A DNA stretch of 35,207 nt, taken from NCBI GenBank assembly GCA_021604105.1, contig BQIW01000046.1, positions 1 through 35,207 of the forward strand, written 5' to 3'. The notes beneath the pieces were generated by a model that had not been told where the DNA came from, did no database searches, and was given only the letters and a program-made list of their open reading frames with translations. This DNA comes from Nitrospirales bacterium. Its GTDB lineage: Bacteria; Nitrospirota; Nitrospiria; Nitrospirales; UBA8639. The first letter of the stretch is position 1. Each line of letters starts with the position of its first letter. Both the position numbers and the translations under genes were made by a program. Shown here in pieces: positions 2,961-32,314 of this stretch.

Positions 2961-3137
2961 AGCGAGGGACCTGTCCAGATTATAGATGTCATGTATTGTC
3001 ACCTGTGAGGAATATATAATGGCTATGCTAAAAGCAGGAATCGGAGAGGTACACAGAGAAAATTGGAACTGCCTGCTCCATGCATTAAAAAATTGAATAT
3101 TCCCTTATTTTTGCGATTTAGCGAAAAGGAATAAACG

Positions 3138-4406
3138 ATGCCTTCCAAAAGACCAAAAATTTTATTTCTGGCGTATTATTTCCCGCCACTAAATGGTATT
3201 GCCTGCGTACGAACCTGGAATATCGCAAAATACCTCTCCCGGTTAGGTTGGGATGTTACCGTTGTGACGCCTGATCCTCATTTATGGCGATTGGGGGACT
3301 CGAGCGAAATTGAGAAAACAAATCTTGAGCTCAACAAAGCAGGCATCAAGCGATTGTCTACAGGGCATGGCTGGCGGTTTCTTTCGCCCGGTTCGTTGAA
3401 ATGCGAAAACGAGGGAATCAAATGGTTTGTGGGAGCGGTCTGTCGACAGATTGCGAGCAAGTGGAGGATTGATCGAGAGATTGGCTGGATCAATGAAGCC
3501 AAGCGAGCCTGTTCAACCCTTGTGAAAGAGGACGTAGATATTATTCTGGCAAGTGGAAAGCCTTTTTGTTGCTTTCGATTGGCCAAATGGCTGTCGGATA
3601 AACTGAAGCGGCCGTATGTCCTTGACTACCGTGATCCGTGGACAAACAATCCTCATGCGAAGCTTCAAAAATTTCAGAAAACCATCAAAGAGGAGCAACA
3701 ACTTCTTCAAAAGAGTGCGGCTGTCACCATCGTTTCTCCGTCATGGGCATTGGATTTACGAAAACGGTATGATCTCAAAGGCAAAGTCTACGTCATTTCA
3801 AACGGGTTTGATCCAGAAGAATTGAACCGGGTACAACCTGTCCAATTTCCCTATTTCACCATAGTGTATACTGGTAATTTCTATCCTCCCAAGCGAGTGA
3901 TTGCACCTCTCATGGCTGCTCTTAAGCAACTGAAGGAATTTAGGGGTGAAGAAAATGGAAAGTGGTTTTTACATTATTATGGGCAAATGGGAGACCATGT
4001 AAGAGAAGAAGCCGAGCGATTTGGGGTTACGAACAACGTGAAGCTCCATGGAAAAGTTCCCCGCAGTGTCGCGTTAGCCGCAGTTGCCGGTGCCGATGTG
4101 AGTGTGGTGATTACTTCAATACCCGATAAGGTCACGATTGCCGATCAGGGAATGGTCACAGGGAAAGTCTTTGAGCCGCTGGGTTTGGGAAGTCCGATTC
4201 TGCTTATTTGCCCATTAGAAAGTGATGCCGCGCTGTTGGGTCAATGCCAAGGCGTGCATGTGTTTCAAAAAGAGAATGTCGGGGGTATGGCCCACTTTCT
4301 CAATAAACTTATTGAAGGGAATGGTGAGAAAATAGCCGGGGGAGAAGAGTATTCGTGGGTAAATTTAAGCAAGCAATTAAATGACATTCTTCTTAAAAGT
4401 CTGTAG
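3138..4406 (+). CDS. GT4-like glycosyltransferase
   Basis: This 422-residue GT-B glycosyltransferase starts with KILFLAYYFPPLNGIACVRTWNIAKYL, the N-terminal pattern of GT4-type enzymes that carry a Glycos_transf_4-like donor/acceptor fold. The C-terminal domain has VYTGNFYPPKR near residue 237 and a KVFEPLGLGSPIL stretch at about 343-355. That stretch takes the place of the usual E-x7-E loop and resembles the KLFEYLAAGRPIL variant seen in many capsule enzymes. The ATG at 3138 has an AAAAGGA Shine-Dalgarno sequence 7-8 bases upstream. The gene sits alone between the IS110 remnant and the O-antigen ligase-like gene. Its sugar specificity is unknown. Confidence 0.88.
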   Translation: MPSKRPKILFLAYYFPPLNGIACVRTWNIAKYLSRLGWDVTVVTPDPHLWRLGDSSEIEKTNLELNKAGIKRLSTGHGWRFLSPGSLKCENEGIKWFVGAVCRQIASKWRIDREIGWINEAKRACSTLVKEDVDIILASGKPFCCFRLAKWLSDKLKRPYVLDYRDPWTNNPHAKLQKFQKTIKEEQQLLQKSAAVTIVSPSWALDLRKRYDLKGKVYVISNGFDPEELNRVQPVQFPYFTIVYTGNFYPPKRVIAPLMAALKQLKEFRGEENGKWFLHYYGQMGDHVREEAERFGVTNNVKLHGKVPRSVALAAVAGADVSVVITSIPDKVTIADQGMVTGKVFEPLGLGSPILLICPLESDAALLGQCQGVHVFQKENVGGMAHFLNKLIEGNGEKIAGGEEYSWVNLSKQLNDILLKSL

Positions 4407-4619
4407 GGGACTGAAATACAGTTAACCATTCTCGGACATCCAGGCAACTCGTTGGGACTTCAGTGGATTCAGCCGGACTGTTATTCTGAGATTGAACTAG
4501 AGATCTGTTTCCTGGTTGAAAAGGCCTGTTCTGCGAAAACCTCAATCTATGGGAAAAGCCGATCAGTGTAGGAACAATGATAGGCATTTAGGTTTCTGAA
4601 CGTTTTTGAAAAAAAGTCA

Positions 4620-6065
4620 ATGAGTCCTTCCACAGTAAACACAACCCAAGGAATTGGGGAAACCGGTAACATCCAATTCCAACATAAACCGATTTCTGGG
4701 AACAAACTGAATAAAATTATCCTGCTACAGGTGGCATGGTGTACATTCCCGGCTTTGGTTTTGATAAGGCTTGGAGCATTGCGGCCTGGAAGCATTTGGT
4801 GTTTTATATTTTTGTTGGCCTTTCTCGGATGGTATGCCCTTAAAAGAAATCTCCCGGCTTTCATGGCTTTATTGATTGCGACATTGCCTGCGCTTTCCTA
4901 TGCCCGAGGGTACTTTTTCTATAATTCTATTGTGGCCTTACTTGGCCTGGGATTGGGTCTGTGGTACCTCCGTTCTCCCAAAGAATGGTTAATACTATGG
5001 GCCAATCAATTATTTCGGTGGTTTTTTATCATGGGGACGGTGTATTGGTTTATATCCCTAATACTAACGGGACAGTATCATGCCAATCTACGTGCCATGG
5101 AAATGGTGTTTACGGTGAGCAGTATTTATTTGTTAGCGCAGTACCCGAAGTATTTAGCTACAGCCCTAGCTGGTCTAGGAATTTCAGTTTTTTCGGTGGC
5201 CATTGGAATGATTGGGCAGGGAGATCGTTTGGGCATGGCCGATATCGACGGGGAGCACGTGGGTAATGCCATTACTTTTGGACTTCCCGTAGCCTTAGTC
5301 CTTCTTTTGGCTATAGCGGACAATGGCAAATGGCTTTTTCTTCAAAATTCTAAGATTGTCAGAAACGGGTTGATCGCCATGTGCGGAATTTTTTTATTGC
5401 TATCTACATCACGGGGCAGTTGGTTGGTTGCTTTGGTGGGTATAGGGGTAGCAATCTTTTATCAATCTCAACAAAGAAGGAAAATCTTTTTCGCGCTTTT
5501 TTTGATGGGGTGTGTATTGGTTGGAGTTATGCAAACGCAAAGTGGAGAGAAAGTTTACGAACATTTCGAAAAACTTTTCGATTCCGAAAGAACGTTGGTT
5601 CAAAAGAGTACCGGCCGTTATGAAATGTGGCTACTCTTTCCAGAAGTTTTGAAGGATTCTCCTATTTGGGGTGTGGGGCCAGGACTGGGAAAGGAGGCGT
5701 ATGCCCACTATTCCTGGGTGGACAGAGAGGTGACCTATAGACAGGGACACGAAGTGGCCTGGCATGCCTTATATTTGCAAGTAGGTGTTGAAACCGGGCT
5801 GATAGGGCTGACAGTTTTAGGTATTTTTTTGATTAAATTGATTTTCAGGACTTTACTTTATCGAAAAATGACAAAACAGGTTATTCCGCTAGTCGGTATT
5901 TTAGGTTTTATGACCATTGGAATTACCGTTCCAGGGATAGATGGAATTTCAGGCCTTTTCCTGGGGCTTGCTTTTTTAGGTATTATGCCTCTTCAAAGAA
6001 AGATGCCTAAAAAATTATCTCGAAAGGACCCCAGAGAAAATTCAAAGTATATCCCACCTTTGTGA
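4620..6065 (+). CDS. O-antigen polymerase/ligase (Wzy/WaaL-like membrane protein)
   Basis: This 481-residue, very hydrophobic protein has about ten to twelve predicted membrane segments and belongs to the Wzy_C/O-antigen ligase type. In the family these proteins either polymerise undecaprenyl-PP-linked repeat units or ligate chains to an acceptor in the periplasm. Visible markers are the LLLSTSRGSWLVAL segment near residue 260, which carries the conserved arginine after a Ser/Thr-rich helix end. A large periplasmic loop follows, with GRYEMW near 330, SPIWGVGPG near 345, and the His377/His382 region in RQGHEVAWHALYLQVGVETG. The C-terminus is a basic cytoplasmic tail. No strong ribosome-binding site precedes ATG 4620, so the exact start is uncertain. 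In a Wzy-dependent locus with GumC and Wza, polymerase is the likelier role. Confidence 0.87.
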   Translation: MSPSTVNTTQGIGETGNIQFQHKPISGNKLNKIILLQVAWCTFPALVLIRLGALRPGSIWCFIFLLAFLGWYALKRNLPAFMALLIATLPALSYARGYFFYNSIVALLGLGLGLWYLRSPKEWLILWANQLFRWFFIMGTVYWFISLILTGQYHANLRAMEMVFTVSSIYLLAQYPKYLATALAGLGISVFSVAIGMIGQGDRLGMADIDGEHVGNAITFGLPVALVLLLAIADNGKWLFLQNSKIVRNGLIAMCGIFLLLSTSRGSWLVALVGIGVAIFYQSQQRRKIFFALFLMGCVLVGVMQTQSGEKVYEHFEKLFDSERTLVQKSTGRYEMWLLFPEVLKDSPIWGVGPGLGKEAYAHYSWVDREVTYRQGHEVAWHALYLQVGVETGLIGLTVLGIFLIKLIFRTLLYRKMTKQVIPLVGILGFMTIGITVPGIDGISGLFLGLAFLGIMPLQRKMPKKLSRKDPRENSKYIPPL

Positions 6066-6221
6066 CTCACCTTCCCACAGAATCAGTGAAAATAATTGTG
6101 AATAATTTCCTGGAGTGTTTTCTAATTTTAATCTTTACCCACACGAAGTATAATATTAGAAAAATCTTAATAAATTCGGTCTTTATTTATTCATAATCTT
6201 TTTTTGCGGTATTTTATATAT

Positions 6222-6941
6222 ATGACGCTATTTGAATTATATTTCTTATTTTTTCAGCCTGTCTATCCGACCATTTATCGAAAAATAAGGGGTCTCTTAT
6301 TAAATGCCCTTAGTGGCTATAATGAGCATGTGTCTGTATTAGACATTGGGGGACGAAAATCTCATTATACGATCGGAATTGGGGCAGACGTGATCATAAG
6401 TGACCTTCCTCGCATCACAGCTATGCAATCCAAATTACACTTGGGTATTAACTGGCCAATCATAAATCAATTGCGAAAACGTCGAAGCAATGTGAAACAA
6501 ATCGTTTATGATGATATGACCAGAACCTGTTTTAAAGACAATAGCCTCGATATTATTGTCTGCGTTGAGGTGCTTGAACATGTAAAAAAAGATGCAGCCT
6601 TTATTCAAAATGTACATCGCATTCTGAAGAAAGGTGGCTTATTCTTTATGACCACACCTAATGGAGATTACGTGCCGAAAACTATTCCCGATCATGAAAG
6701 GCACTATTCGAAATGCCAATTATATGCGTTACTACATGATTATTTTGATTCGGTAGAAACGTGGGGGGATGTTCGGAGTAGCAAATTTTATCGTTGGGGG
6801 CGAAGAGGGTGGTCATTAAAATATCCCCTGTTGACATTGAAAAGTATGCTGGGTAATGCCCTGAACTACTATGAATCCATACAAAGCCATGGGCAAGAAC
6901 ATAGAACACAGCATCTTTTTGCAAGATGTCAAAAGGAATAA
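6222..6941 (+). CDS. Class I SAM-dependent methyltransferase
   Basis: A SAM-binding Rossmann methyltransferase of the Methyltransf_11 type. Counting from the TTG at 6204, motif I is VLDIGGRKSHY at about 44-54. The acidic post-I residue lies in VIISDLPR, motif II is NSLDIIVCVEVLEHV, and motif III is RILKKGGLFFMTTPN. The fold looks complete. I chose ATG 6222; TTG 6204 is an in-frame alternative giving 245 residues, and neither has a good ribosome-binding site. The N-terminal segment FELYFLFFQPVYPTIYRKI is hydrophobic and may associate with the membrane. In this context it probably methylates a sugar of the repeat unit, but the substrate is unknown. The 138-bp AT-rich gap upstream contains a TATAAT at 6149-6154 without a clear -35 partner. 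Confidence 0.85.
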   Translation: MTLFELYFLFFQPVYPTIYRKIRGLLLNALSGYNEHVSVLDIGGRKSHYTIGIGADVIISDLPRITAMQSKLHLGINWPIINQLRKRRSNVKQIVYDDMTRTCFKDNSLDIIVCVEVLEHVKKDAAFIQNVHRILKKGGLFFMTTPNGDYVPKTIPDHERHYSKCQLYALLHDYFDSVETWGDVRSSKFYRWGRRGWSLKYPLLTLKSMLGNALNYYESIQSHGQEHRTQHLFARCQKE

Positions 6942-7257
6942 TCATTGGCATGGTGGGTTGGTCCCATGATGCACAAAAGGCACAGTGGACACCTGTTCTG
7001 GGTTACTCAAGATGAGGTTGTGGTCTTTTAATATAAAGTTTTTCTTTTCAATTTGTACCAGCTTGGCTTCCCTGTAGAAAAATCGTTTAATTATTTATTC
7101 AATTAAAATGTAGACACACATTGAAGTGGTGCCTTACTGCTGCCTGTTGTCTTTGCGTTTGAAATCTAGAGACTATGTCGAATTGAGCGGGTATGAAGTG
7201 CCATCGGAATTTTGGTCCAGACCTATGTTAGGTATTCTCAACTTGAGGAGGATCGAC

Positions 7258-12028: not shown

Positions 12029-14431
12029 ATGCAAAAACAAAGGAACGGACTAACAGTTCATGAAAACCTAACTGCCAATAGTCCTACGAGCACAATGTTT
12101 AATCAAGGGGACGTCTTTCAAAGGTTTCCCAAAAACGTCTTAAAAGCTTTCACAAAATCAGTTTTGAGGATATCTTCTTGCATATTCCCTCAAAGATTGT
12201 CCCTTTACATTCCCTTCTTAGCATTAGCGATTTTAATCCCATGCTCTCCCGTGTTTTCAGCTTCACTCAATATTTCGAACCTGACCGCGGCCAGTGGACA
12301 AGTGTATGTGGTGCCCTCCTCCGGCCTCCAGACCGGGGGCACGGTATATCGCGATCGCGCCTATACCTTTAAAACGGTCCCCTCTGTCGTGCAGGGTGCC
12401 GCCTACATCAGAACGGCCAATGATGACAAAGCGGCGACCAATTCGAACTTCCTTAGCTTTACTGTCAATGAACCGGTATCCGTGTACGTCGCCTATGATG
12501 ATCGTATTAAATCGAAACCCTCGTGGCTGGGCAGCTTTACCGATACCGGGGCGAATCTGGTGACCTCGGATGCGCCCTTCAGCCTATTTGTGCGAGCTTT
12601 TCCCGCTGGGACCATAACCCTCGGGGGCAATGCGAGTGGTGGATGTTGCAGCATGTATTCCGTCATCGTGAAATCTGGGAGCGGGGGGGCTACCACCACG
12701 CCCACTACCACCACGCCGACCACGACCACGCCGACTACGACCACGCCCACTACCTCCACGTCTTCATCCTCACACAGTATTTCGAACCTGACCGTGGCCA
12801 GTGGACAAGTGTATGTGGTGCCCGCCTCTGGGATCCAGGCCGGGGGCACGGTGTATCGCGATCGCGCCTATACCTTTAAATCGGTCCCCGCTGTCGTGCA
12901 GGGTGCCGCCTACATCAAAACGGCCAATGATGACAAAGCGGCGACCAATTCGAACTTCCTTAGCTTTACTGTCAATGAACCGGTATCGGTGTATGTCGCC
13001 CATGGCGATCGTATTAAATCGAAACCCTCGTGGCTGGGCAGCTTTACCGATACCGGGGCGAATCTGGTGACCTCGGATGCGACCTTCAGCCTATTTGTGC
13101 GGGCATTTCCCGCTGGCACCATAACCCTCGGGGGCAATGCGAGCGGTGGATGTTGCAGCATGTATTCCGTCATCGTGAAATCTGGGAGCGGGGGGACTAC
13201 TACCACGCCCACTACCACTACGCCGACCACCACCACGCCCACCACCACCACCACCACGTCACCAACCTCATCATCCTCCAGTAGTTCGGATGGGGATACA
13301 TACTTCGTGGCTGCGAGCAATGGAAACGACGGGAATTCAGGAACGCAACAATCCCCGTTTAAAACGCTGGAAAGGGGTGTTGATGTTTTACAGCCCGGTG
13401 ACACCCTCTATGTCCGAGGTGGGACTTACAAGGGATTTTACTTTTCTATAAATATTCCAAGTGGCAATTCCTGGTCCCAACCGGTAATCATTAAGGCCTA
13501 TCAGCAGGAAAAAGTGGTGCTCACTTCGCCAGCAAATAAAACCGCTCTTCAGTTTGTTAATGGAGCTCATCATATCATTGTGGATGGATTCACTATTGAT
13601 GCTAGAGGTGGCGCTGCGGGGATAGGAACGGGAAATGCCCACCATATACGCATCATGAATGGAGAGGTCATGAATGCATCGAAAACCGGTGTGATTGCTC
13701 ATGATGCTTCCAATGCTTTTGAATTCATCAATCTTCGAATTCACGATAACGGAAGCAGTGACTATGATCATGGTTTGTACATTACAACAAGTAACCATCT
13801 TGTGAAGGATTGTGAGATTTACCGAAATACTGGTTGGGGCGTCCATATTTATGGTAGTGGTAGTCCAAGCAATAATCGAATAATGAACAACAAGGTTTAT
13901 AATAACGCCCGATCAGGAAGAGGGGCTGGAATAGGAGTCTATAGGGGAACTGGAAATTCTATTGTCAATAATATTGTTTGGGGCCAAAATAAAACGGGTA
14001 TAGACATTAATTCTGGAGCATCGAATACAATGGTGTATAACAATACTATTCATAAGGAAGCTTATGGGATATATACATCTGGTAGTTCAGGGACGAAAAT
14101 CATTAATAATATCGTCAATGCAAGTTCATTTTATGGGGTAGTAATAAAATCAACGAGTAGCAGTACTCAACTCAAAAATAACCTTGTTTACGGAAGTGGG
14201 AGTGGAAGGGATATCCTTAATCAGGCGTCTTCAACTACATTGAGCAAAAATTTGGAGGGGAATAATTTTGATCCAAAATTTCAAAATGTGGGAAGCTTTG
14301 ACTTTCGCTTGCGGAGCGGAAGCCCTGCCATTGATGCCGGAATAAACTTAAGTGAAGTAAAAGAAGATTTTGCTTATACTTCAAGGCCACGAGGGTCTGG
14401 TCATGATATTGGTGCCTTCGAAGGGTCGTAA
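12029..14431 (+). CDS. Secreted right-handed beta-helix protein with two duplicated N-terminal domains
   Basis: 800 residues. A long basic N-terminal region (about 55 residues) precedes a hydrophobic signal segment (LSLYIPFLALAILIPCSPVFSA), with likely cleavage near residue 78. Two almost identical domains of about 130 residues follow (81-212 and 250-381). They contain VYRDRAYTF, AAYI(R/K)TANDDKA, SVYVA and KPSWLGSFTDTG, and end in GGNASGGCCSMYSVIV; they look like beta-sandwich or carbohydrate-binding modules, but I cannot name the family. Each is followed by a TTTTP-repeat and Ser-rich linker. Residues from about 425 form a right-handed parallel beta-helix of the pectate-lyase/DUF1565 type, from DTYFVAASNGNDGNSGT to the final DIGAFEGS. 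ATG 12029 has GGAGAG nine bases upstream. By family it may bind, cleave or epimerise the exported polymer; no catalytic set was assigned. Confidence 0.85.
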   Translation: MQKQRNGLTVHENLTANSPTSTMFNQGDVFQRFPKNVLKAFTKSVLRISSCIFPQRLSLYIPFLALAILIPCSPVFSASLNISNLTAASGQVYVVPSSGLQTGGTVYRDRAYTFKTVPSVVQGAAYIRTANDDKAATNSNFLSFTVNEPVSVYVAYDDRIKSKPSWLGSFTDTGANLVTSDAPFSLFVRAFPAGTITLGGNASGGCCSMYSVIVKSGSGGATTTPTTTTPTTTTPTTTTPTTSTSSSSHSISNLTVASGQVYVVPASGIQAGGTVYRDRAYTFKSVPAVVQGAAYIKTANDDKAATNSNFLSFTVNEPVSVYVAHGDRIKSKPSWLGSFTDTGANLVTSDATFSLFVRAFPAGTITLGGNASGGCCSMYSVIVKSGSGGTTTTPTTTTPTTTTPTTTTTTSPTSSSSSSSDGDTYFVAASNGNDGNSGTQQSPFKTLERGVDVLQPGDTLYVRGGTYKGFYFSINIPSGNSWSQPVIIKAYQQEKVVLTSPANKTALQFVNGAHHIIVDGFTIDARGGAAGIGTGNAHHIRIMNGEVMNASKTGVIAHDASNAFEFINLRIHDNGSSDYDHGLYITTSNHLVKDCEIYRNTGWGVHIYGSGSPSNNRIMNNKVYNNARSGRGAGIGVYRGTGNSIVNNIVWGQNKTGIDINSGASNTMVYNNTIHKEAYGIYTSGSSGTKIINNIVNASSFYGVVIKSTSSSTQLKNNLVYGSGSGRDILNQASSTTLSKNLEGNNFDPKFQNVGSFDFRLRSGSPAIDAGINLSEVKEDFAYTSRPRGSGHDIGAFEGS
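12271..12689 (+). repeat. Tandem internal duplication, copy 1
   Basis: A 419-bp unit repeated at 12778-13196 with an exact 507-bp offset and no insertion or deletion between the copies. By eye there are only about twenty mismatches. It encodes the first of two CCSMY-ending domains of the beta-helix protein. Nucleotide identity this high, including silent positions, points to recent duplication or gene conversion. Confidence 0.92.
12690..12765 (+). repeat. Thr-Pro linker microrepeat, first linker
   Basis: A run of ACN/CCN codons encoding about four TTTTP-type units followed by a serine tract. It is built from ACCACGCCNACN-like units and separates the two duplicated domains. A similar run at 13197-13262 follows domain 2. 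Such repeats can change length by slippage; the protein product would be an extended, possibly glycosylated spacer. Confidence 0.8.
12778..13196 (+). repeat. Tandem internal duplication, copy 2
   Basis: This is the second copy of the 419-bp unit at 12271-12689, in the same frame and offset by 507 bp (169 codons including the linker). Most differences cluster where copy 1 has SSGLQTG and copy 2 has ASGIQAG, and at the AYDD/AHGD position. These may mark binding-loop divergence between the two domains. Confidence 0.92.
13197..13285 (+). repeat. Thr-Pro/Ser linker microrepeat, second linker
   Basis: Second TTTTP-type run followed by a poly-Ser stretch, joining duplicated domain 2 to the beta-helix. 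It differs from the first linker by a longer uninterrupted Thr run (ACCACCACC...) and a longer Ser tract, as expected for slippage-prone repeats. Confidence 0.78.
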
Positions 14432-15585: not shown

Positions 15586-16794
15586 ATGAAACGTTGGAAG
15601 AAGCGCATGGACATAAAAATCTTCCTTTTCTGGTTGTTGGTTGTGGGTGGAGGTTTTACGTTTGGGGGAATAAACGAAGCCATTGCCAAAGACTATTTTG
15701 TAGCAGTTGCCAATGGAAAAGATGGAAATGCTGGCACAAAGGAGGCGCCGTTTCTCACTCTTGAGAAGGGGGTGAGCGTTCTTTTGCCAGGTGACACCTT
15801 GAATGTAAGAGGCGGCACATATCAAAGGTCGAAATACCTGTGGAGTCCGCCGAATGGCGATTCTTGGGAAAATGCTATTACGATCAAAAATTATAAGGGT
15901 GAAAAAGTAACTGTTAAACCACTACCGGGTTATTCTGTCTTTGAGTTTGAACCAGGCAGTCAATTCATTGTTATGGATGGTTTCATCATCGATGCAAAAG
16001 GCGGGCATGGAGGGATTCGGACCGGTGAAGGCAGCCATCATATTCGTATTATGAATGGTGAAGTCATGAATGCTCCTAGCCAGGGTATTCTTGCCGGAAA
16101 AAATTCCGAATATTTTGAATTCATTAACCTTCGAATTCATGATAATGGAACTACAGATCTTGATCATGGCATTTATCTCGCTTCAAACCACCATCTTGTG
16201 AAGGATTGCTCAATTTATCGAAATGCTGGTTGGGGAGTACATATTTATAGTTCTGGGAACCGGCCGAGCTTTAATGTCGTGATGAATAATAAAATTTTTG
16301 ACAATGCTCGCCTCGGGCACCGAGGAGCAGGAATAGGGCTTTATAGTGGGGAAGGAAATATGGCTATAAATAATCTAATCTGGGGAAGCCTACAGATTGG
16401 AATCCAAATACATTATGATGCATTAACCTCAAAAGTTTACAATAATACTGTTTATGGAAATAAAAGTGGGATTCTTGTTGGAACAAGGGCAAAAAATAGC
16501 AAAGTTGTTAATAATATCAGCTATAATAATTCAAGTAATAACTTTGAAAACGCAGGAGAAAATACATCGTCTAACAATAATCTGACAGAGAATCCGTTAT
16601 TTATTGATGCTTCGAAGCGAGATTTTCACCTTCAATCTGGAAGTCCTGCAATTTTAGCAGGTTCAATAATATCTGAGGTGGCTTATGATTTTGAATATAA
16701 GCCACGCTCTTCGAATGCCAATTATGATATTGGTGCCTTCCAAGCCGGTGAATCTTTGGCGCCCCCAACCGCTTTAAAGATTCTGAATCGTTAG
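15586..16794 (+). CDS. Secreted right-handed beta-helix protein (paralogue)
   Basis: 402 residues. A basic N-terminus and hydrophobic segment (IFLFWLLVVGGGFTFGG) end at a likely signal peptidase site near residue 35 (NEAIA-KD). The remainder is one right-handed parallel beta-helix that matches the C-terminal half of the 800-residue protein upstream throughout. Shared stretches include the DGNAGT/DGNSGT, PGDTL(N/Y)VRGGTY, HHIRIMNGEVMNA, EFINLRIHDNG, NHHLVKDC/NHLVKDC, GWGVHIY and RGAGIG motifs, and the DIGAF ending. It lacks the duplicated N-terminal domains and Thr linkers. The ATG has GGAGAAGAG eight bases upstream. The family contains lyases, epimerases and surface binding proteins; action on the exported polymer is inference. 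Two IS fragments lie between the paralogues. Confidence 0.87.
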   Translation: MKRWKKRMDIKIFLFWLLVVGGGFTFGGINEAIAKDYFVAVANGKDGNAGTKEAPFLTLEKGVSVLLPGDTLNVRGGTYQRSKYLWSPPNGDSWENAITIKNYKGEKVTVKPLPGYSVFEFEPGSQFIVMDGFIIDAKGGHGGIRTGEGSHHIRIMNGEVMNAPSQGILAGKNSEYFEFINLRIHDNGTTDLDHGIYLASNHHLVKDCSIYRNAGWGVHIYSSGNRPSFNVVMNNKIFDNARLGHRGAGIGLYSGEGNMAINNLIWGSLQIGIQIHYDALTSKVYNNTVYGNKSGILVGTRAKNSKVVNNISYNNSSNNFENAGENTSSNNNLTENPLFIDASKRDFHLQSGSPAILAGSIISEVAYDFEYKPRSSNANYDIGAFQAGESLAPPTALKILNR

Positions 16795-25750: not shown

Positions 25751-25803
25751 CGAAATTCATATTCCAGCGAAATGATTACAATGTTCATTCAGGAGTACCG
25801 GTG

Positions 25804-28338
25804 ATGACTAAGCGTGTTGTTGACACTCTTGGTGCGTTTTTTGGCTTGGTGGTATGTATGCCCCTCTTTGTTGTGCTCGCTATTCTTATCAAAATGGATT
25901 CCCGAGGACCTGTCTTATTTCGACAGGTGCGCGTGGGTCTGGGGTTTAGGCCATTTTGTTTATATAAGTTTCGTACGATGGCATCGGACGCCTCAAGAAA
26001 AGGAGGGGAACTGACCATCGGCGAAGATCCTCGTGTGACCCGCCTCGGACGATTTTTGCGCCGGTTGAAACTTGACGAGCTTCCGCAGCTGTTCAATGTC
26101 TTGATAGGTGATATGAGTCTGGTGGGCCCTCGTCCGGAAGTGGCCTATTATGTCGAAAAGTTTAAAGAGGACTATTGCGATGTTTTAACGGTCCGGCCTG
26201 GTTTAACGGATCTGGCTTCTCTGAAGTATATCGATGAACAGGGTGTGCTCGGAAAGGTCGAGAAACCCGAAGATGAGTATACAAATACGATCCTGCCGGA
26301 AAAAATCCGATTAGCAAAATTATATATCGAACATGCCTCATTGGCTTTTGACCTTGCCGTTATTGCTCAGACGTTATTACAACTGCTGGGGTTGCGGAGT
26401 GTCATTTTGAAGGTTACCGATCGTGATAATCATGATGAGGTGGCTTTTCTTGAAGGTTCGGTACTTTTCCAGTTTATCACCAAATATCGCCGACCCATTA
26501 TTATTACGTTGGATCTGGCATTAATTGTTTTGGCCTATTATCTGGCGTTCTGGTTGAGGTTTGACGGCAACATCCCCGAAGAGGCCGGCCAACTTTTTCT
26601 CAGGACATTGCCAGGGCTGCTTGCGATTCGTGGGATTGCCTTTATGATTTTCAGGCTCAATGAAGGGCTGTGGAGATATATTAGTATCTGGGATTTAAAG
26701 AAAATTACGGGTGGGGTGTTGGCTGGAACCATAGTGTTCTATGGCTTCGTCAAATGGGGATTCGGTATAACCGGATATCCTCGGTCCATCTTTATCATCG
26801 ATAGTATCCTGTTGGTCGGATTTTTGTGTGGGATCCGGCTTGCGGTTCGAATCTTTCGAGAGCGAAAGATTTTGCGAAAGACGAAACGTGTTCTCATTAT
26901 TGGGGCTGGCGATGCGGGGGAAAACATCGTTCGGGAGATGCAATCACATTCCACCTCTTCTTATACGCCAATTGGATTTGTGGACGATGATGTCTCCAAA
27001 GTGAGCAAGCGCATCCATGGGGTCAAAGTTCTGGGGACACGCCAGGACCTGTCACGCATTCTTCAAACTCATAAGCCGGAGGAAGTGTTAGTGGCCCTGC
27101 CCGGGACGAATTCAGCTGTTCTTCGAGACATTACGGCACTGTTGGCCCCCTTTAACGTGCGCATCAAAACACTCCCGAATTTGGGTGATATCCTGGAAGG
27201 CAAAGTCACAATCAGTCAGATACGGGATCTCGCAATTGAAGACCTGCTTCAGCGCCCCCCCGTGGGATTGGATCCTCAGCCAGTACGCAATTTAATCGAA
27301 GGGAAGCGGGTCTTGGTGACCGGGGCTGGCGGGTCTATTGGTTCGGAACTCTGCCGCCAAATTGTCGCGCTTGCTCCCAAAGCGATCATTTTATATGAAC
27401 GACACGAGAATAGTTTATACGCAATTGCGGGGGAGTTGGCTGATCAGGGGAATTCCGGTGTGATTCATGAAGTGCTGGGAGATATCACTGATGTTCCCCG
27501 TCTCCACGAGACATTTAAGACCTATCATCCGGAGATAATCTTCCATGCGGCGGCTCACAAGCATGTTCCGTTAATGGAGGTGAATCCTGGGGAGGCGTTC
27601 AAGAACAATATCCTGGGCACTCGTTTAGTGGCTGAAGCGGCCGCGCATTTCGGTGCCGAGCATTTTGTGTTGATTTCTACAGATAAGGCCGTGAATCCTT
27701 CCAGTGTAATGGGAGCGACCAAACGGGTCGCGGAATTGGTTGTCCAGGCTATGGCGAGTCAGAGTCAGACACGATTTCTGACTGTTCGCTTTGGCAATGT
27801 CTTGGGCAGTAATGGCAGTGTCGTGCCGCGCTTCCAAAAACAGATCAAGGCTGGGGGACCAGTCACTGTCACGCATCCGGAGGTGCGCCGCTACTTTATG
27901 CTGATTCCAGAAGCGGTGATTTTAGTATTGCAGGCTGCAGCCATTGGAGAGCAAGGCGCGATTTATGTCCTGGAGATGGGTGGACAAATTAAACTGGTGG
28001 ATCTCGCGCGTAACCTCATCCGACTCTCCGGGCATGTACCGGAGAAAAATATTCCTATCCAGTTTATCGGTCTTCGCCCTGGGGAAAAACTCGAAGAAGA
28101 ATTGGTGGGCGAATGTGAGCAAGCTGTCCCTTCATCGATTGATAAGATCCTCAGGATTCAATCGGGACAATCCTTTGATCCGGCATTCCTGAATAATATT
28201 TTGAGCAAGCTGGAGGACGTACAAATATTGGGTCATTCACCATCGGTTATTGAGCTTCTTCAGCAGTTGGTGCCGGCTTTCCATCGTCCAGAAATTTTGG
28301 AAATGGCCGCGATGGGTGAAGAATATCAAATTCGATAA
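25804..28338 (+). CDS. Fused phosphoglycosyl transferase (PglC/WcaJ-type) and WbpM/CapD-type 4,6-dehydratase
   Basis: 844 residues from ATG 25804, with AGGAG eight bases upstream; GTG 25801 is adjacent. Residues 1-200 are a bacterial sugar transferase. They have a hydrophobic N-terminal re-entrant helix, KFRTM (55-59), the catalytic Asp-Glu in LDELPQL (Asp91-Glu92) and GDMSLVGPRPE (102-112). This part moves a sugar-1-phosphate to undecaprenyl phosphate. After a linker, four membrane segments start near 226 (PIIITLDLALIVLAYYLAF). A CoA/NAD-type Rossmann domain follows (VLIIGAGDAG, 363-372), then an SDR domain with TGAGGSIG (506-513) and Met636-x3-Lys640 in VMGATK. WbpM-type enzymes use such a Met in place of the SDR Tyr. 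This half should turn UDP-GlcNAc into the 4-keto-6-deoxy product. The fusion joins an early and a late step of glycan initiation. Confidence 0.93.
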   Translation: MTKRVVDTLGAFFGLVVCMPLFVVLAILIKMDSRGPVLFRQVRVGLGFRPFCLYKFRTMASDASRKGGELTIGEDPRVTRLGRFLRRLKLDELPQLFNVLIGDMSLVGPRPEVAYYVEKFKEDYCDVLTVRPGLTDLASLKYIDEQGVLGKVEKPEDEYTNTILPEKIRLAKLYIEHASLAFDLAVIAQTLLQLLGLRSVILKVTDRDNHDEVAFLEGSVLFQFITKYRRPIIITLDLALIVLAYYLAFWLRFDGNIPEEAGQLFLRTLPGLLAIRGIAFMIFRLNEGLWRYISIWDLKKITGGVLAGTIVFYGFVKWGFGITGYPRSIFIIDSILLVGFLCGIRLAVRIFRERKILRKTKRVLIIGAGDAGENIVREMQSHSTSSYTPIGFVDDDVSKVSKRIHGVKVLGTRQDLSRILQTHKPEEVLVALPGTNSAVLRDITALLAPFNVRIKTLPNLGDILEGKVTISQIRDLAIEDLLQRPPVGLDPQPVRNLIEGKRVLVTGAGGSIGSELCRQIVALAPKAIILYERHENSLYAIAGELADQGNSGVIHEVLGDITDVPRLHETFKTYHPEIIFHAAAHKHVPLMEVNPGEAFKNNILGTRLVAEAAAHFGAEHFVLISTDKAVNPSSVMGATKRVAELVVQAMASQSQTRFLTVRFGNVLGSNGSVVPRFQKQIKAGGPVTVTHPEVRRYFMLIPEAVILVLQAAAIGEQGAIYVLEMGGQIKLVDLARNLIRLSGHVPEKNIPIQFIGLRPGEKLEEELVGECEQAVPSSIDKILRIQSGQSFDPAFLNNILSKLEDVQILGHSPSVIELLQQLVPAFHRPEILEMAAMGEEYQIR

Positions 28339-28747: not shown

Positions 28748-29443
28748 ATGAGAATTCTAATGGTTGTGGCTACGTTTATTCTTCTGTGCGGGTGTAATTC
28801 TGGATGGAAGGGAATGAAAACCGTTAATGCCTCAAGTTTGGAACCCAATGGTTACCCTGCTCTTTCTGGAAAAACAAATGTTGAAGGTCCAACGAGGGCT
28901 CATGGTCAAGAGAAGGAACAAATCAGCATCGATGATCCGCGTTATATCATCCAACCCGGCGACCAATTAAGCGTAAAATTCTTTTTTAATCCGGAGTTAA
29001 ACGAAGAAGATTTAGTGGTGAGGCCTGATGGACAAATTTCCCTTCAATTAGTTCATGAAGTGAAGGCGGCAGATTTGACCCCCTTGCAGCTCAAAGGCGT
29101 TTTAGAGAAAAAATATGTTGGACAACTAAAAAACCCCGAGATTGCCGTCATTGTTCGTTCAATTCGGGAGCCTTATAGAATCTATGTCGATGGAGAAGTT
29201 AAGACACCGGGTGAATATGAAATGGTCGGGTCATTAAGTGTATTGCAAGCAATTGCGCGGGCCGGGGGTATGAAGGAAGACACGGCGAAGAAAAGTGAGG
29301 TAAAGGTCATCCGGGAGGATCAGGATGGTCAGAGGTTTGTCATTAATGTGGATTTGGATGGAGCCCTCAATGGAGGTGATCTGAGTCAGGATATTCGACT
29401 GCTTCCGTCTGATATGGTCTATGTACCCAGGTCATTTTGGTAA
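28748..29443 (+). CDS. Wza-like polysaccharide export lipoprotein
   Basis: 231 residues. The N-terminus MRILMVVATFILLCGC is a lipoprotein signal peptide, with the modified Cys at residue 16. From residue 66 comes a polysaccharide-export (Poly_export/PES) domain, YIIQPGDQLSVKFFFNPELN and RPDGQISLQL, then a single SLBB domain (YRIYVDGEVKTPGEYEM, VLQAIARAGG). It is shorter than Escherichia Wza (about 379 residues): one SLBB domain and no C-terminal amphipathic helix for an outer-membrane pore are visible. It may therefore need a partner to cross the outer membrane. The ATG has GAAGGA nine bases upstream. It is the first gene of the export block and shares its PES sequence with the next gene. Confidence 0.9.
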   Translation: MRILMVVATFILLCGCNSGWKGMKTVNASSLEPNGYPALSGKTNVEGPTRAHGQEKEQISIDDPRYIIQPGDQLSVKFFFNPELNEEDLVVRPDGQISLQLVHEVKAADLTPLQLKGVLEKKYVGQLKNPEIAVIVRSIREPYRIYVDGEVKTPGEYEMVGSLSVLQAIARAGGMKEDTAKKSEVKVIREDQDGQRFVINVDLDGALNGGDLSQDIRLLPSDMVYVPRSFW

Positions 29444-29686
29444 GTTAATGTGTTTGCAAGTGAAAGAATGTTACCTGGTTTTCCAGGCTCAATACTTATA
29501 TAGATCAATAATGAGTTTAATTGACTCCTTGACTCCAATTCCCCTTAGCTTGCTTGGGAGTTACCATTTGAGAACTATAAGCTATTAATTCGTTGAATAC
29601 TCCGATCGCTTGTGTTGGGGATCTTTTATTTAGCATTATTTTAGGATTAATAGAGATTTGCTTTGAAAAGGGATGAAAGGAATATC

Positions 29687-30832
29687 GTGGATATTACAAA
29701 GATTCATTTAGCTTTTCGACCTTTCTACAGACATAGGCTAATTATGACAATCTCATGGTCTTTTTTACTTGCACTCGTCATGTTTGGGGTTATTCTCTTC
29801 CCTCAGGTTTTTTCTTATGCGGACCCTGGGTCAGGAACTAAAAATATTTCGAGTTCGGCAGATGTTGAAAAATCCGACAATCAGGTATTTTCGATTATGA
29901 AGCAACAACTCCGTTCTTATCAACAGAGTCTGGAGGAATCGGAGGGCCGTCTTCAAGATTTTCAACGGAAGCATGGAATTATTCTCATTGAAACGCAAAT
30001 GAATCATCTTCTTGAACAGCGTAAATCTTTGGACAATTCATTAAAAGAGGCCGAAAACCAAGTCAAGGGTTTTCAAGAGAAACTTGCCTGGATTCAGGGT
30101 CAGATTAGCCAGATTCCTCCCGAAGTTCCTCTTTCGAGTTCGGACAAAGAAGGAGGGCTTGTTGGTGGGGCCAAGAATAATTTACTGAGCCTCCAATTAA
30201 AGGAGCAGGAATTATTGAATAAATATAACGAAAACAACCCTCATATTCAGTCTCTTCGAAGGGAAATGGAATTGATTAATCAGTTCATTGAGGAACAGAA
30301 AGCGTTCTCCACCGGCAAGAACCCCCTCTATCTTGAGATGGAAATGCAATTATTTCACACGCAAGCTGAGCTCGTCTCGGCCGAAGCCCAAGCTGGAGTG
30401 ATCAAACAACAGATTGCTGAAGTGGACAAGGAGCTGAATAGGCTAAGAAATTTGGGACCGGAACTCGATGAACTGCGGCGCCAAGTCACAGCAGATGAAA
30501 AAAATTACATAAATTATCTCACCAAAGTAGGGAAGACTCCACCACAAGATTACCAAGTTCAGGTTGGGGATCAGCTCGATATTAAATTCTTTTTTAATCC
30601 GGAACTCAATGAAACCGTCTTGGTTCGTCCTGATGGGCGTATCGCTTTGCAGTTGGTCGGTGAAATCACTGTTGTTGGACAGACGGTGCAACAAATTCGA
30701 TCGATTTTAATCAAGACGTATTCCGGACAACTCAAGAACCCAGAAGTGGCTGTCCTTCTTCGATCAACTAATGTGCCTGGGGAGGAAACAACCGGCACCA
30801 CATCAGCCCTAGGAACTTCTGGAGTGAAATGA
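29687..30832 (+). CDS. Coiled-coil protein with C-terminal polysaccharide-export domain (GumC-like/Wza-like chimera)
   Basis: 381 residues from GTG 29687, which has GAAAGGA six bases upstream; TTG 29663 is an alternative with a poor site. One membrane segment (IMTISWSFLLALVMFGVIL, about 18-38) is followed by a long coiled coil (about 70-285). The coiled coil resembles the periplasmic helices of the GumC-like protein encoded next: LxxYQxxLExSExxLQxFxRKH, LLEQR, KEQELLNKYNENNPHIQSLRREME, and DExNYINYLxK. Residues 288-365 are a PES domain almost like that of the preceding lipoprotein (GDQLDIKFFFNPELN, VRPDGRIALQL, GQLKNPEVAVLLRS). It lacks the Wzz N-terminal domain and second membrane helix of GumC, and the SLBB domain and lipobox of Wza. 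It could bridge the inner-membrane length regulator and the outer-membrane exporter; this is inference. Three bases separate its stop from the next start. Confidence 0.82.
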   Translation: MDITKIHLAFRPFYRHRLIMTISWSFLLALVMFGVILFPQVFSYADPGSGTKNISSSADVEKSDNQVFSIMKQQLRSYQQSLEESEGRLQDFQRKHGIILIETQMNHLLEQRKSLDNSLKEAENQVKGFQEKLAWIQGQISQIPPEVPLSSSDKEGGLVGGAKNNLLSLQLKEQELLNKYNENNPHIQSLRREMELINQFIEEQKAFSTGKNPLYLEMEMQLFHTQAELVSAEAQAGVIKQQIAEVDKELNRLRNLGPELDELRRQVTADEKNYINYLTKVGKTPPQDYQVQVGDQLDIKFFFNPELNETVLVRPDGRIALQLVGEITVVGQTVQQIRSILIKTYSGQLKNPEVAVLLRSTNVPGEETTGTTSALGTSGVK

Positions 30833-30835
30833 AAT

Positions 30836-32314
30836 ATGGAAACTGAGTACTCTGAAGCGGGAGATGGTTTTCCTTACCCTCTAGGAAGTGTTCGGGATAT
30901 CCTGACCGCTCTTTTTAAGCATAAAACTAAGATTGTTACTGTTTTTTTAATAATATTTGGAATTGTTGCCGGCTATGTTTTTACATTGGTCCCTCTCTAT
31001 GAGGCTCGAACCAGTCTGCTTCTGAAGCTTGGAAGGGAACATATATTCCGTCCTGAAGTAGGAAAAGATAATCAAATTGTGGAATATAATGAGGCTGCTG
31101 CGCTTCAATCAGAGATAGAAATTATTTCTAGTAAAGACCTCATAAGACGAGTCGTGAGTACTTTAGGCGTTGAAAAAGTCTATCCAGAATTTTTAGATCC
31201 TTCATTGGAGATTCACAACCCTTTAGAGAAAGGTGTTTCAACTTTTTTGAAAAATCTGTCACCCATCCCGGTCAAGGGTTCGAGTGTGCTAGAAATATCA
31301 TATTTAAATCCACGACCTGAGGTAGCAGCTGAAGCACTCAATCTCCTTGTTGATTTATTGAAAGAGAAACATCTTCAAGTGTTTAGCGACCCGAAGGCTT
31401 CGTTTTTAACGAATCAGTTAAATGACTACCAGGAAAAGTTGGAACAGTCAGAAGCAGATCTTCAGGCTTTTAAACGTAAGCATGATCTTTCCTCACCCCT
31501 TCTCGAGCAACAACGCCGCCTCCTGGACCAGCGGGCCACCCTGGATAGTAATTACAAAACGACTAAAAACAAGCTGCAAGGATTGGCAGGTAAAATTGTT
31601 GCACTTGATACTCAGATGAAAACCATTCTCGAAAGTATTTCTGTTTCCAAGGTGGAAGAAGGGGGGAACCTGGAAAAGGCAAAAGCGGAATTGTTTGCTC
31701 TAAAACGTGAGGAACAAAAGCTTCTAACAAAATACACCGAAACGAGTTTTCCTGTTTTGAACCTTCGAAAAGAAATTGACCAGATGGAAGCTTTTATTCT
31801 TGCCGAACAGAAAAACGAGCGAGCGAATACCATAGCAAGTGGAAAGAAAGCGATGTACAGCCAGCTTGAAAAGGAGCGGTTGGGAGCCATATCTGAGGAA
31901 ACGACTCTCCAGGCAAGCAGTCAGGTGATTGCCCTTCAAATCGAGGATCTTGACAAGAAAATCCAGAGGCTCGACGAATTAAATAAGGAACTGATTGTCC
32001 TGGAGCGGCAGAGGGCAGCTGATGAGCAAAATTACAATTTATATCTTTCTCGAGTAGAGGAAGCGAATGTATCTGAAGAAATGGACCGGCTCAAAATGGC
32101 CAACATTAGTGTGATCCAGCGGGCTGAGGTCCCCGGGGGGCCAGCTGGACGCTCTCCATTACTGCTTATAACCCTGGGAGGTATTCTGGGGATTATGACT
32201 GGAACAGGATTTGGGCTTCTTTTAGAGTACTTCCAAGGTGCCTATACCCGCCCGGAACAAGCGGCCAACGATCTAAACCTTCCCCTCCTGGCTACTTTCG
32301 GTCAAAAACTGTAG
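30836..32314 (+). CDS. GumC/Wzz-type chain-length determinant (PCP-2a without kinase domain)
   Basis: 492 residues. An N-terminal cytoplasmic stretch, a membrane helix (IVTVFLIIFGIVAGYVFTL, about 33-52) and the Wzz domain with YEARTSLLLKLGRE come first. A long periplasmic coiled coil (about 185-430) follows, then a PGGPAGRSPLLL Pro-rich motif and a second membrane helix (about 441-465). The chain ends at LLATFGQKL. No P-loop or Tyr cluster is present, so the kinase part of PCP-2a systems is encoded separately (33705-34481). In the family these proteins fix polymer length and dock onto Wza in the periplasm. The start ATG is three bases after the previous stop and GGAGTG lies just upstream. Confidence 0.92.
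   Translation: METEYSEAGDGFPYPLGSVRDILTALFKHKTKIVTVFLIIFGIVAGYVFTLVPLYEARTSLLLKLGREHIFRPEVGKDNQIVEYNEAAALQSEIEIISSKDLIRRVVSTLGVEKVYPEFLDPSLEIHNPLEKGVSTFLKNLSPIPVKGSSVLEISYLNPRPEVAAEALNLLVDLLKEKHLQVFSDPKASFLTNQLNDYQEKLEQSEADLQAFKRKHDLSSPLLEQQRRLLDQRATLDSNYKTTKNKLQGLAGKIVALDTQMKTILESISVSKVEEGGNLEKAKAELFALKREEQKLLTKYTETSFPVLNLRKEIDQMEAFILAEQKNERANTIASGKKAMYSQLEKERLGAISEETTLQASSQVIALQIEDLDKKIQRLDELNKELIVLERQRAADEQNYNLYLSRVEEANVSEEMDRLKMANISVIQRAEVPGGPAGRSPLLLITLGGILGIMTGTGFGLLLEYFQGAYTRPEQAANDLNLPLLATFGQKL

Follow-up and report, generated by a model that had tools for sequence, protein, structure and literature searches.

A gene lying between the OPX lipoprotein and PCP genes of an export operon in a Nitrospirales bacterium, a relative of the nitrite-oxidising bacterium Nitrospira, encodes a protein in which a PCP-type helical hairpin is followed by a C-terminal PES domain. 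Comparison with homologues and with the known Wza-Wzc interface gives strong support to the view that this one protein carries both halves of the contact, namely a Wzc-type tip and a Wza-type receptor surface. We propose, at about even odds, that between PCP and OPX lipoprotein it forms an additional ring, in series with both, thereby lengthening the polysaccharide conduit. Coordinates refer throughout to the window, the whole stretch of 35,207 nt of contig BQIW01000046.1 (assembly GCA_021604105.1) that was analysed, in which the following features were located:

28748..29443, + strand: short OPX lipoprotein, PES plus one SLBB, lipobox LCGC, without Wza_C helix (Pfam and sequence)
29663..30832, + strand: fusion gene, signal peptide plus PCP-type helical hairpin plus C-terminal PES, 389 aa counted from TTG
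29687..29821, + strand: Sec signal peptide, probably cleaved, residues 9-53, site SYA/DPGS (conserved AxA-type site; dN/dS)
29858..30529, + strand: predicted helical hairpin, residues 66-289 (AlphaFold2 model against PCP model; BLASTP 36%; dN/dS 0.05-0.16)
30221..30241, + strand: hairpin tip loop K187-P193, KYNENNP (aligned with Wzc 325-345, PslE and homologues)
30542..30772, + strand: PES (Poly_export, Wza D1-like) domain, residues 294-370 (Pfam, Foldseek, VIA)
30587..30610, + strand: PES docking loop 1, FFFNPELN, residues 309-316, E314 equivalent to Wza E102 (alignment; PMC12881504)
30722..30745, + strand: PES docking loop 2, SGQLKNPE, residues 354-361, Q356 equivalent to Wza Y155 (alignment)
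30773..30829, + strand: C-terminal tail, residues 371-389, non-conserved and predicted to be disordered
30836..32314, + strand: GumC/PslE-like PCP, with Wzz base, long hairpin, GNVR and two membrane helices
32331..33695, + strand: ExeA-like AAA ATPase with C-terminal LysM domain, near TIGR03015
33705..34481, + strand: BY-kinase-like protein, Walker-A lysine replaced (GEGTST)

The fusion gene is a single open frame of 389 aa with 0 internal stops (29663-30832). Close relatives point to GTG 29687, which is preceded by AAAGG, as the probable real start in place of TTG 29663. The preceding OPX lipoprotein has the Class-3 OPX WzaB as its best PDB match, and the PCP gene starts 3 bases downstream of the fusion gene, at 30836. 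The AAA ATPase encoded further down the operon may prepare peptidoglycan for the conduit. The BY-kinase-like protein is a probable pseudokinase partner of the PCP: its Walker-A motif reads GEGTS or GEGVS in every operon where the motif was found, it has no Tyr-rich tail, and it can be likened to pseudokinase partners such as EcpK and HfsB. Upstream, positions 25801-28335 encode in a single frame an 845-aa protein in which a phosphoglycosyl transferase is fused with a CapD/PseB-like sugar dehydratase; this arrangement is conserved in several relatives, and in L042 it is broken up into two overlapping frames. Two secreted-looking proteins are also encoded inside the polysaccharide cluster (12029-14431 and 15586-16794); their C-terminal repeats are alike and appear beta-helix-like by eye, and in the former Thr/Ser-rich linkers separate the repeated domains.

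The composite nature of the protein had been noticed in a sequence-only reading of this DNA, which described a coil similar to that of the next gene's GumC-like product, a PES domain close to that of the preceding lipoprotein, and the absence of a Wzz N-terminal domain, a second membrane helix, a lipobox and an SLBB domain. All of these points are borne out. The fusion coil (74-289) shares 36% identity with the coil of the neighbouring PCP (BLASTP, E 3e-34), with which an HMM built on the fusion coil can be aligned over the full length, and the fusion PES (297-372) is 57% identical to that of the lipoprotein (E 2e-25). The Pfam search proposed in that reading places Poly_export (PF02563) at residues 293-365 (E 2.6e-19, 69.6 bits against a cut-off of 28) and yields no match at E <= 1 to Wzz (PF02706), GNVR (PF13807) or SLBB; Wza_C has no Pfam match in the protein either, and a lipobox is likewise absent. 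An AlphaFold2 model computed from a 15-row alignment predicts an up-arm (66-187), a tip (188-192) and a down-arm (193-289), each arm bearing a strand, followed by the PES domain, at a confidence that is moderate overall and leaves the relative placement of the domains uncertain (mean pLDDT 71.5, pTM 0.38). The model of the PCP has the same hairpin layout, and its best match is Wzc in the Wza-Wzc complex. The fusion PES matches the Class-3 OPX WzaB (Z 12.9, rmsd 1.3) and Wza D1 (Z 11.7) in VIA, while structural alignment of the fusion coil against PDB hairpins returned generic coiled-coil matches only. Going by the count of helical residues, each arm of the hairpin would extend some 14-16 nm if straight.

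Where our analysis departs from that earlier description is the N-terminus, which had been taken for a membrane helix. The protein has a single hydrophobic segment, as opposed to the two membrane helices of a PCP, and hydropathy by itself fails to separate a signal peptide from a membrane anchor. However, in 14 of 15 homologues the hydrophobic core is followed, at the same aligned place, by an A-x-A type (SPase I) site, such as SYA/D, AYA/E, VYA/K, AHA/D or SFA/E, the fifteenth reading VFG/Q. Furthermore, the segment itself evolves almost freely (dN/dS ~0.5-1.1), as compared to 0.05-0.16 in the coil. Both observations argue against an anchor, which we have set aside, and for a cleaved Sec signal peptide as the very probable nature of the segment, so that the mature protein would very probably be soluble and periplasmic.

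The functional meaning of the two halves can be approached through the E. coli Wza-Wzc complex, in which residues K332, Y334, T335 and H338 of the Wzc arm tip bind D99, E102 and Y155 of Wza, and in which mutation of the interface abolishes capsule production (PMC12881504). With Wza and Wzc numbering checked on the MG1655 sequences and the Wzc tip placed by ungapped motif, the fusion tip (L041) aligns without gaps to Wzc 325-345 (LKEQELLNKYTENNPHVQSIR versus FKEAEISKLYTKVHPAYRTLL), and its loop K187-P193 corresponds to the Wza D1-docking loop of Wzc, L333-P339. On the receptor side, E314 of the fusion protein aligns with Wza E102 and Q356 with Wza Y155. The charged pairs are kept only in part, Wza D99 being replaced by F311 and Wzc K332 by N186, and this counts against a link in series. 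The docking stretches are nonetheless singled out by their conservation between the fusion PES and the lipoprotein PES, which are identical at 15 of 16 positions there as against 28 of 58 elsewhere (Fisher p 0.001), and four control comparisons with other OPX proteins reveal no docking-stretch bias. Positions 314, 356 and 357 vary across operons, with the fusion protein equal to its OPX in 14/14 of them, and the change of tip between P-type and SR-type falls between the same two clades in the fusion protein and in the PCP; this co-variation of tip and PES rests on about two clade-level events, its permutation test ignores the tree and its statistic is uncorrected. In L051, moreover, L357I and N359T occur in both PES paralogues via different codons, and hence do not stem from gene conversion.

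A link in series would make use of both surfaces. In such a scheme, Sec would export the protein and the signal peptide would then be removed, leaving a mature product that would fold into a PCP-type hairpin with a Wza-D1-like PES at the hairpin's open end and would probably assemble as a ring. The PCP, in the inner membrane, would place its arm tips on the PES face of this ring, much as Wzc does on Wza D1, and the ring's own arm tips would dock on the PES ring formed by the lipoprotein at the outer membrane. Both ends of D1 in Wza face D2, that is, the outer-membrane side, so that under a Wza-like D1 topology the arms would be directed towards the outer membrane, with the receptor loop turned to the PCP, the orientation required of a relay. 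The outcome would be one extra storey in the polysaccharide conduit, by which a short OPX (PES plus one SLBB) could serve a wide periplasm. For OPX proteins of this short kind, the current view is that PCP helices must be extra-long if the periplasm is to be spanned (PMC9601211), and an extended periplasmic space is common to all described Nitrospirales (PMC13049253). On the other hand, a wide periplasm is also present in Nitrospirales without the fusion gene, and no outer-membrane barrel gene was identified in the fusion operons, both of which count against the series link. Furthermore, one genome (G031, locus L056) lacks the fusion gene but possesses those for OPX, PCP, ATPase and kinase, and its PCP is no longer than other PCPs, indicating that a conduit can be built without the fusion protein. 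The sequence-only reading had also suggested a periplasmic bridge joining the length regulator to the exporter. A bridge is still the best-supported mechanism, but the SPase I-type site favours a soluble series link over the membrane-anchored form. Since tip and receptor belong to the same interface, copies of the protein might even stack head to tail into a tube between the PCP and the OPX lipoprotein, with as many storeys as match the width of the periplasm, although we regard this elaboration as very improbable.

Other placements of the same two surfaces have to be weighed against a ring in series. The protein might instead enter a mixed ring with the PCP, its hairpin packing among PCP hairpins and its PES, close to the inner membrane where the crown of the PCP has its base, acting as a gate or length adjuster. 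Conservation of the whole PCP coil from end to end, with the same hairpin layout, would suit this arrangement, as would the main-clade arrangement of the fusion gene, which overlaps the PCP gene or is separated from it by no more than 4 bases, suggesting coupled synthesis. Yet the fusion protein is devoid of the membrane helices and Wzz base that carry the oligomer contacts of PCPs, and the docking positions would have no reason to co-vary between the two PES domains, which makes a mixed PCP ring rather unlikely. We consider it unlikely, too, that the protein works outside the conduit, as a regulator or assembly factor that would transiently cap the PCP tips or the OPX docking surfaces as a soluble mimic and thereby set chain length or the timing of docking. 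The probable solubility of the protein, free of any membrane anchor, its two interface halves and its dispensability in G031 speak for such a factor, but a competitor needs no whole 220-residue hairpin maintained under a dN/dS of 0.05-0.16. More doubtful still is the insertion of the fusion PES within the PES ring of the lipoprotein, with the hairpin hanging towards the PCP as a tether. The 57% identity and the operon-matched docking residues of both PES domains are compatible with a shared ring, but the fusion protein has no SLBB with which to continue it upwards, the arm would exit the PES on the wrong side for the PCP under a Wza-like topology, and the operon-matched positions are precisely the PCP-facing ones.

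The distribution of the gene bears on its origin. Searching related genomes for homologues, as the sequence-only reading had recommended, reveals the same architecture in 20 full-length copies, none with internal stops, from 17 of the 49 genomes of the host's family within the Nitrospirales. Two of the fusion-bearing genomes are single-contig and the assemblies are independent. That reading had named a frameshift as one of the findings that would undo its proposal; the frame is open, and the 20 full-length copies rule out a frameshift or assembly artefact. The fusion gene is present in 17 of the 18 family genomes having the OPX-PCP pair, almost always between both genes, and the order OPX, fusion, PCP, AAA ATPase and kinase-like gene holds in nearly all loci read. 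No full-length fusion was found elsewhere among 396 genomes of the phylum, a plasmid search outside the phylum gave PES-only matches, and a species-wide scan of close relatives returned Nitrospirales and Nitrospira records only (the close family records are titled Nitrospira, Nitrospiraceae or Nitrospirales).

In maximum-likelihood trees, the fusion PES domains make up one clade and the fusion coils another, apart from the OPX and PCP clades, with fork supports of 85/70 (PES) and 95/87 (coil) and one change in 200/200 bootstrap trees, and a single origin of the fusion is thus strongly supported by the sequences. Both halves are under strong purifying selection (dN/dS 0.05-0.16 in the coil and 0.01-0.16 in the PES domain). 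Fusion and OPX PES domains of the same genome show no excess codon identity (0.427 versus 0.430, with 2879 of 5000 permutations as high), and shared codons at identical PES residues are no commoner within than between genomes, so ongoing gene conversion is not seen. The recombination between two neighbours that had been put forward as an alternative origin therefore finds no support as a recent event, given the single clades in both trees and the codon identity; one ancient fusion of a PCP-coil copy with a PES copy is the likely origin of the gene. Even though both halves resemble the two flanking genes, there is hardly any chance that the gene is a fortuitous or recent recombinant, or an assembly artefact, with no function, given its full-length copies in independent and partly single-contig assemblies, its single origin in both trees and the selection acting on it.

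Several further export loci came to light in the course of the comparison. A second one (L059, G000 contig C14, 3467-4774) contains two adjacent short OPX genes, together with a gene for a 785-aa PCP-similar protein and a barrel-like gene with a weak TIGR03016 match; TIGR03016 matches in the host genome are confined to other contigs and fall below the cut-off. A third locus (L057, G000 contig C42, 4032-10904) has PCP, ATPase and kinase-like genes with no OPX nearby, and, by score, the coil of its PCP is nearer to the fusion coil than that of the window's own PCP is. Two tandem PES (OPX-type) matches are located beside the fusion gene in G420 (C6, 81913-83453) and G421 (C285, 1410-2940). A barrel gene beside the operon was also considered and rejected, as the next genes in L052, L053, L054 and L057, after the kinase-like gene, encode right-handed beta-helix proteins (5481-7037, 3078-4880, 3630-5228 and 4032-5672, respectively).

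How polysaccharide conduits bridge periplasms of different width is an open question, and it is sharpest for short-OPX exporters. That exactly the two pieces in contact are combined in a conserved soluble protein suggests a modular answer, in the form of extra storeys, and illustrates how domain shuffling creates a new component of an envelope-spanning machine. By uniting tip and receptor in one soluble molecule, the fusion protein also constitutes a compact reagent for tests of the PCP-OPX contact.

The fusion protein fits neither the OPX nor the PCP definition. An OPX protein has an N-terminal PES followed by at least one SLBB (PMC9603273); the fusion protein possesses a PES, but at residues 293-365 of 389 and without SLBB, and it shows neither the lipobox nor the Wza_C helix through which outer-membrane attachment is commonly, if not universally, achieved. 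It has the long periplasmic hairpin of a PCP, but neither the Wzz N-terminal domain nor the GNVR region, and it scores below the cut-offs of both TIGR03007 (60.4 versus 278.85 bits) and TIGR03027 (57.6 versus 180 bits). In the literature covered, which included few subscription papers, and with searches centred on the host's own phylum, we found no description of a PCP coil followed by a PES, and no broadly known family with this order, consistent with the earlier remark that no named family is known to display it.

The best NCBIfam matches of the operon proteins, or nearly so, are those of the XrtA/PEP-CTERM set (TIGR03007, TIGR03015, TIGR03018, TIGR03027), but all of these proteins fall below the curated cut-offs and the fusion protein has no counterpart model. 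With PCPs of the Wzc/PslE/GumC type it shares the long periplasmic hairpin and the YTxxxP tip, the PslE coil being matched by profile, whereas it differs in being secreted, in ending with a PES and in lacking the Wzz base, GNVR and membrane helices. With Wza and the short (Class 3, D1D2) OPX proteins (EpsY/WzaX, WzaB, PslD) it has in common the Wza-like PES (D1) fold and the docking loops, but its PES is C-terminal, after a PCP coil, and is accompanied by no SLBB, lipobox or outer-membrane helix. The ExoF-type OMA proteins of the α-Proteobacteria likewise combine an exporter domain with a long helical region taken over from a family of inner-membrane partners; there, this region is central, HlyD-like (MFP-related) and flanked by alpha/beta regions on either side (PMC2850547). 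In the fusion protein, in contrast, the coil is N-terminal and comes from the PCP family, and the PES ends the protein, so that the OMA proteins represent a distant precedent for the borrowing of a partner's helices by an exporter domain.
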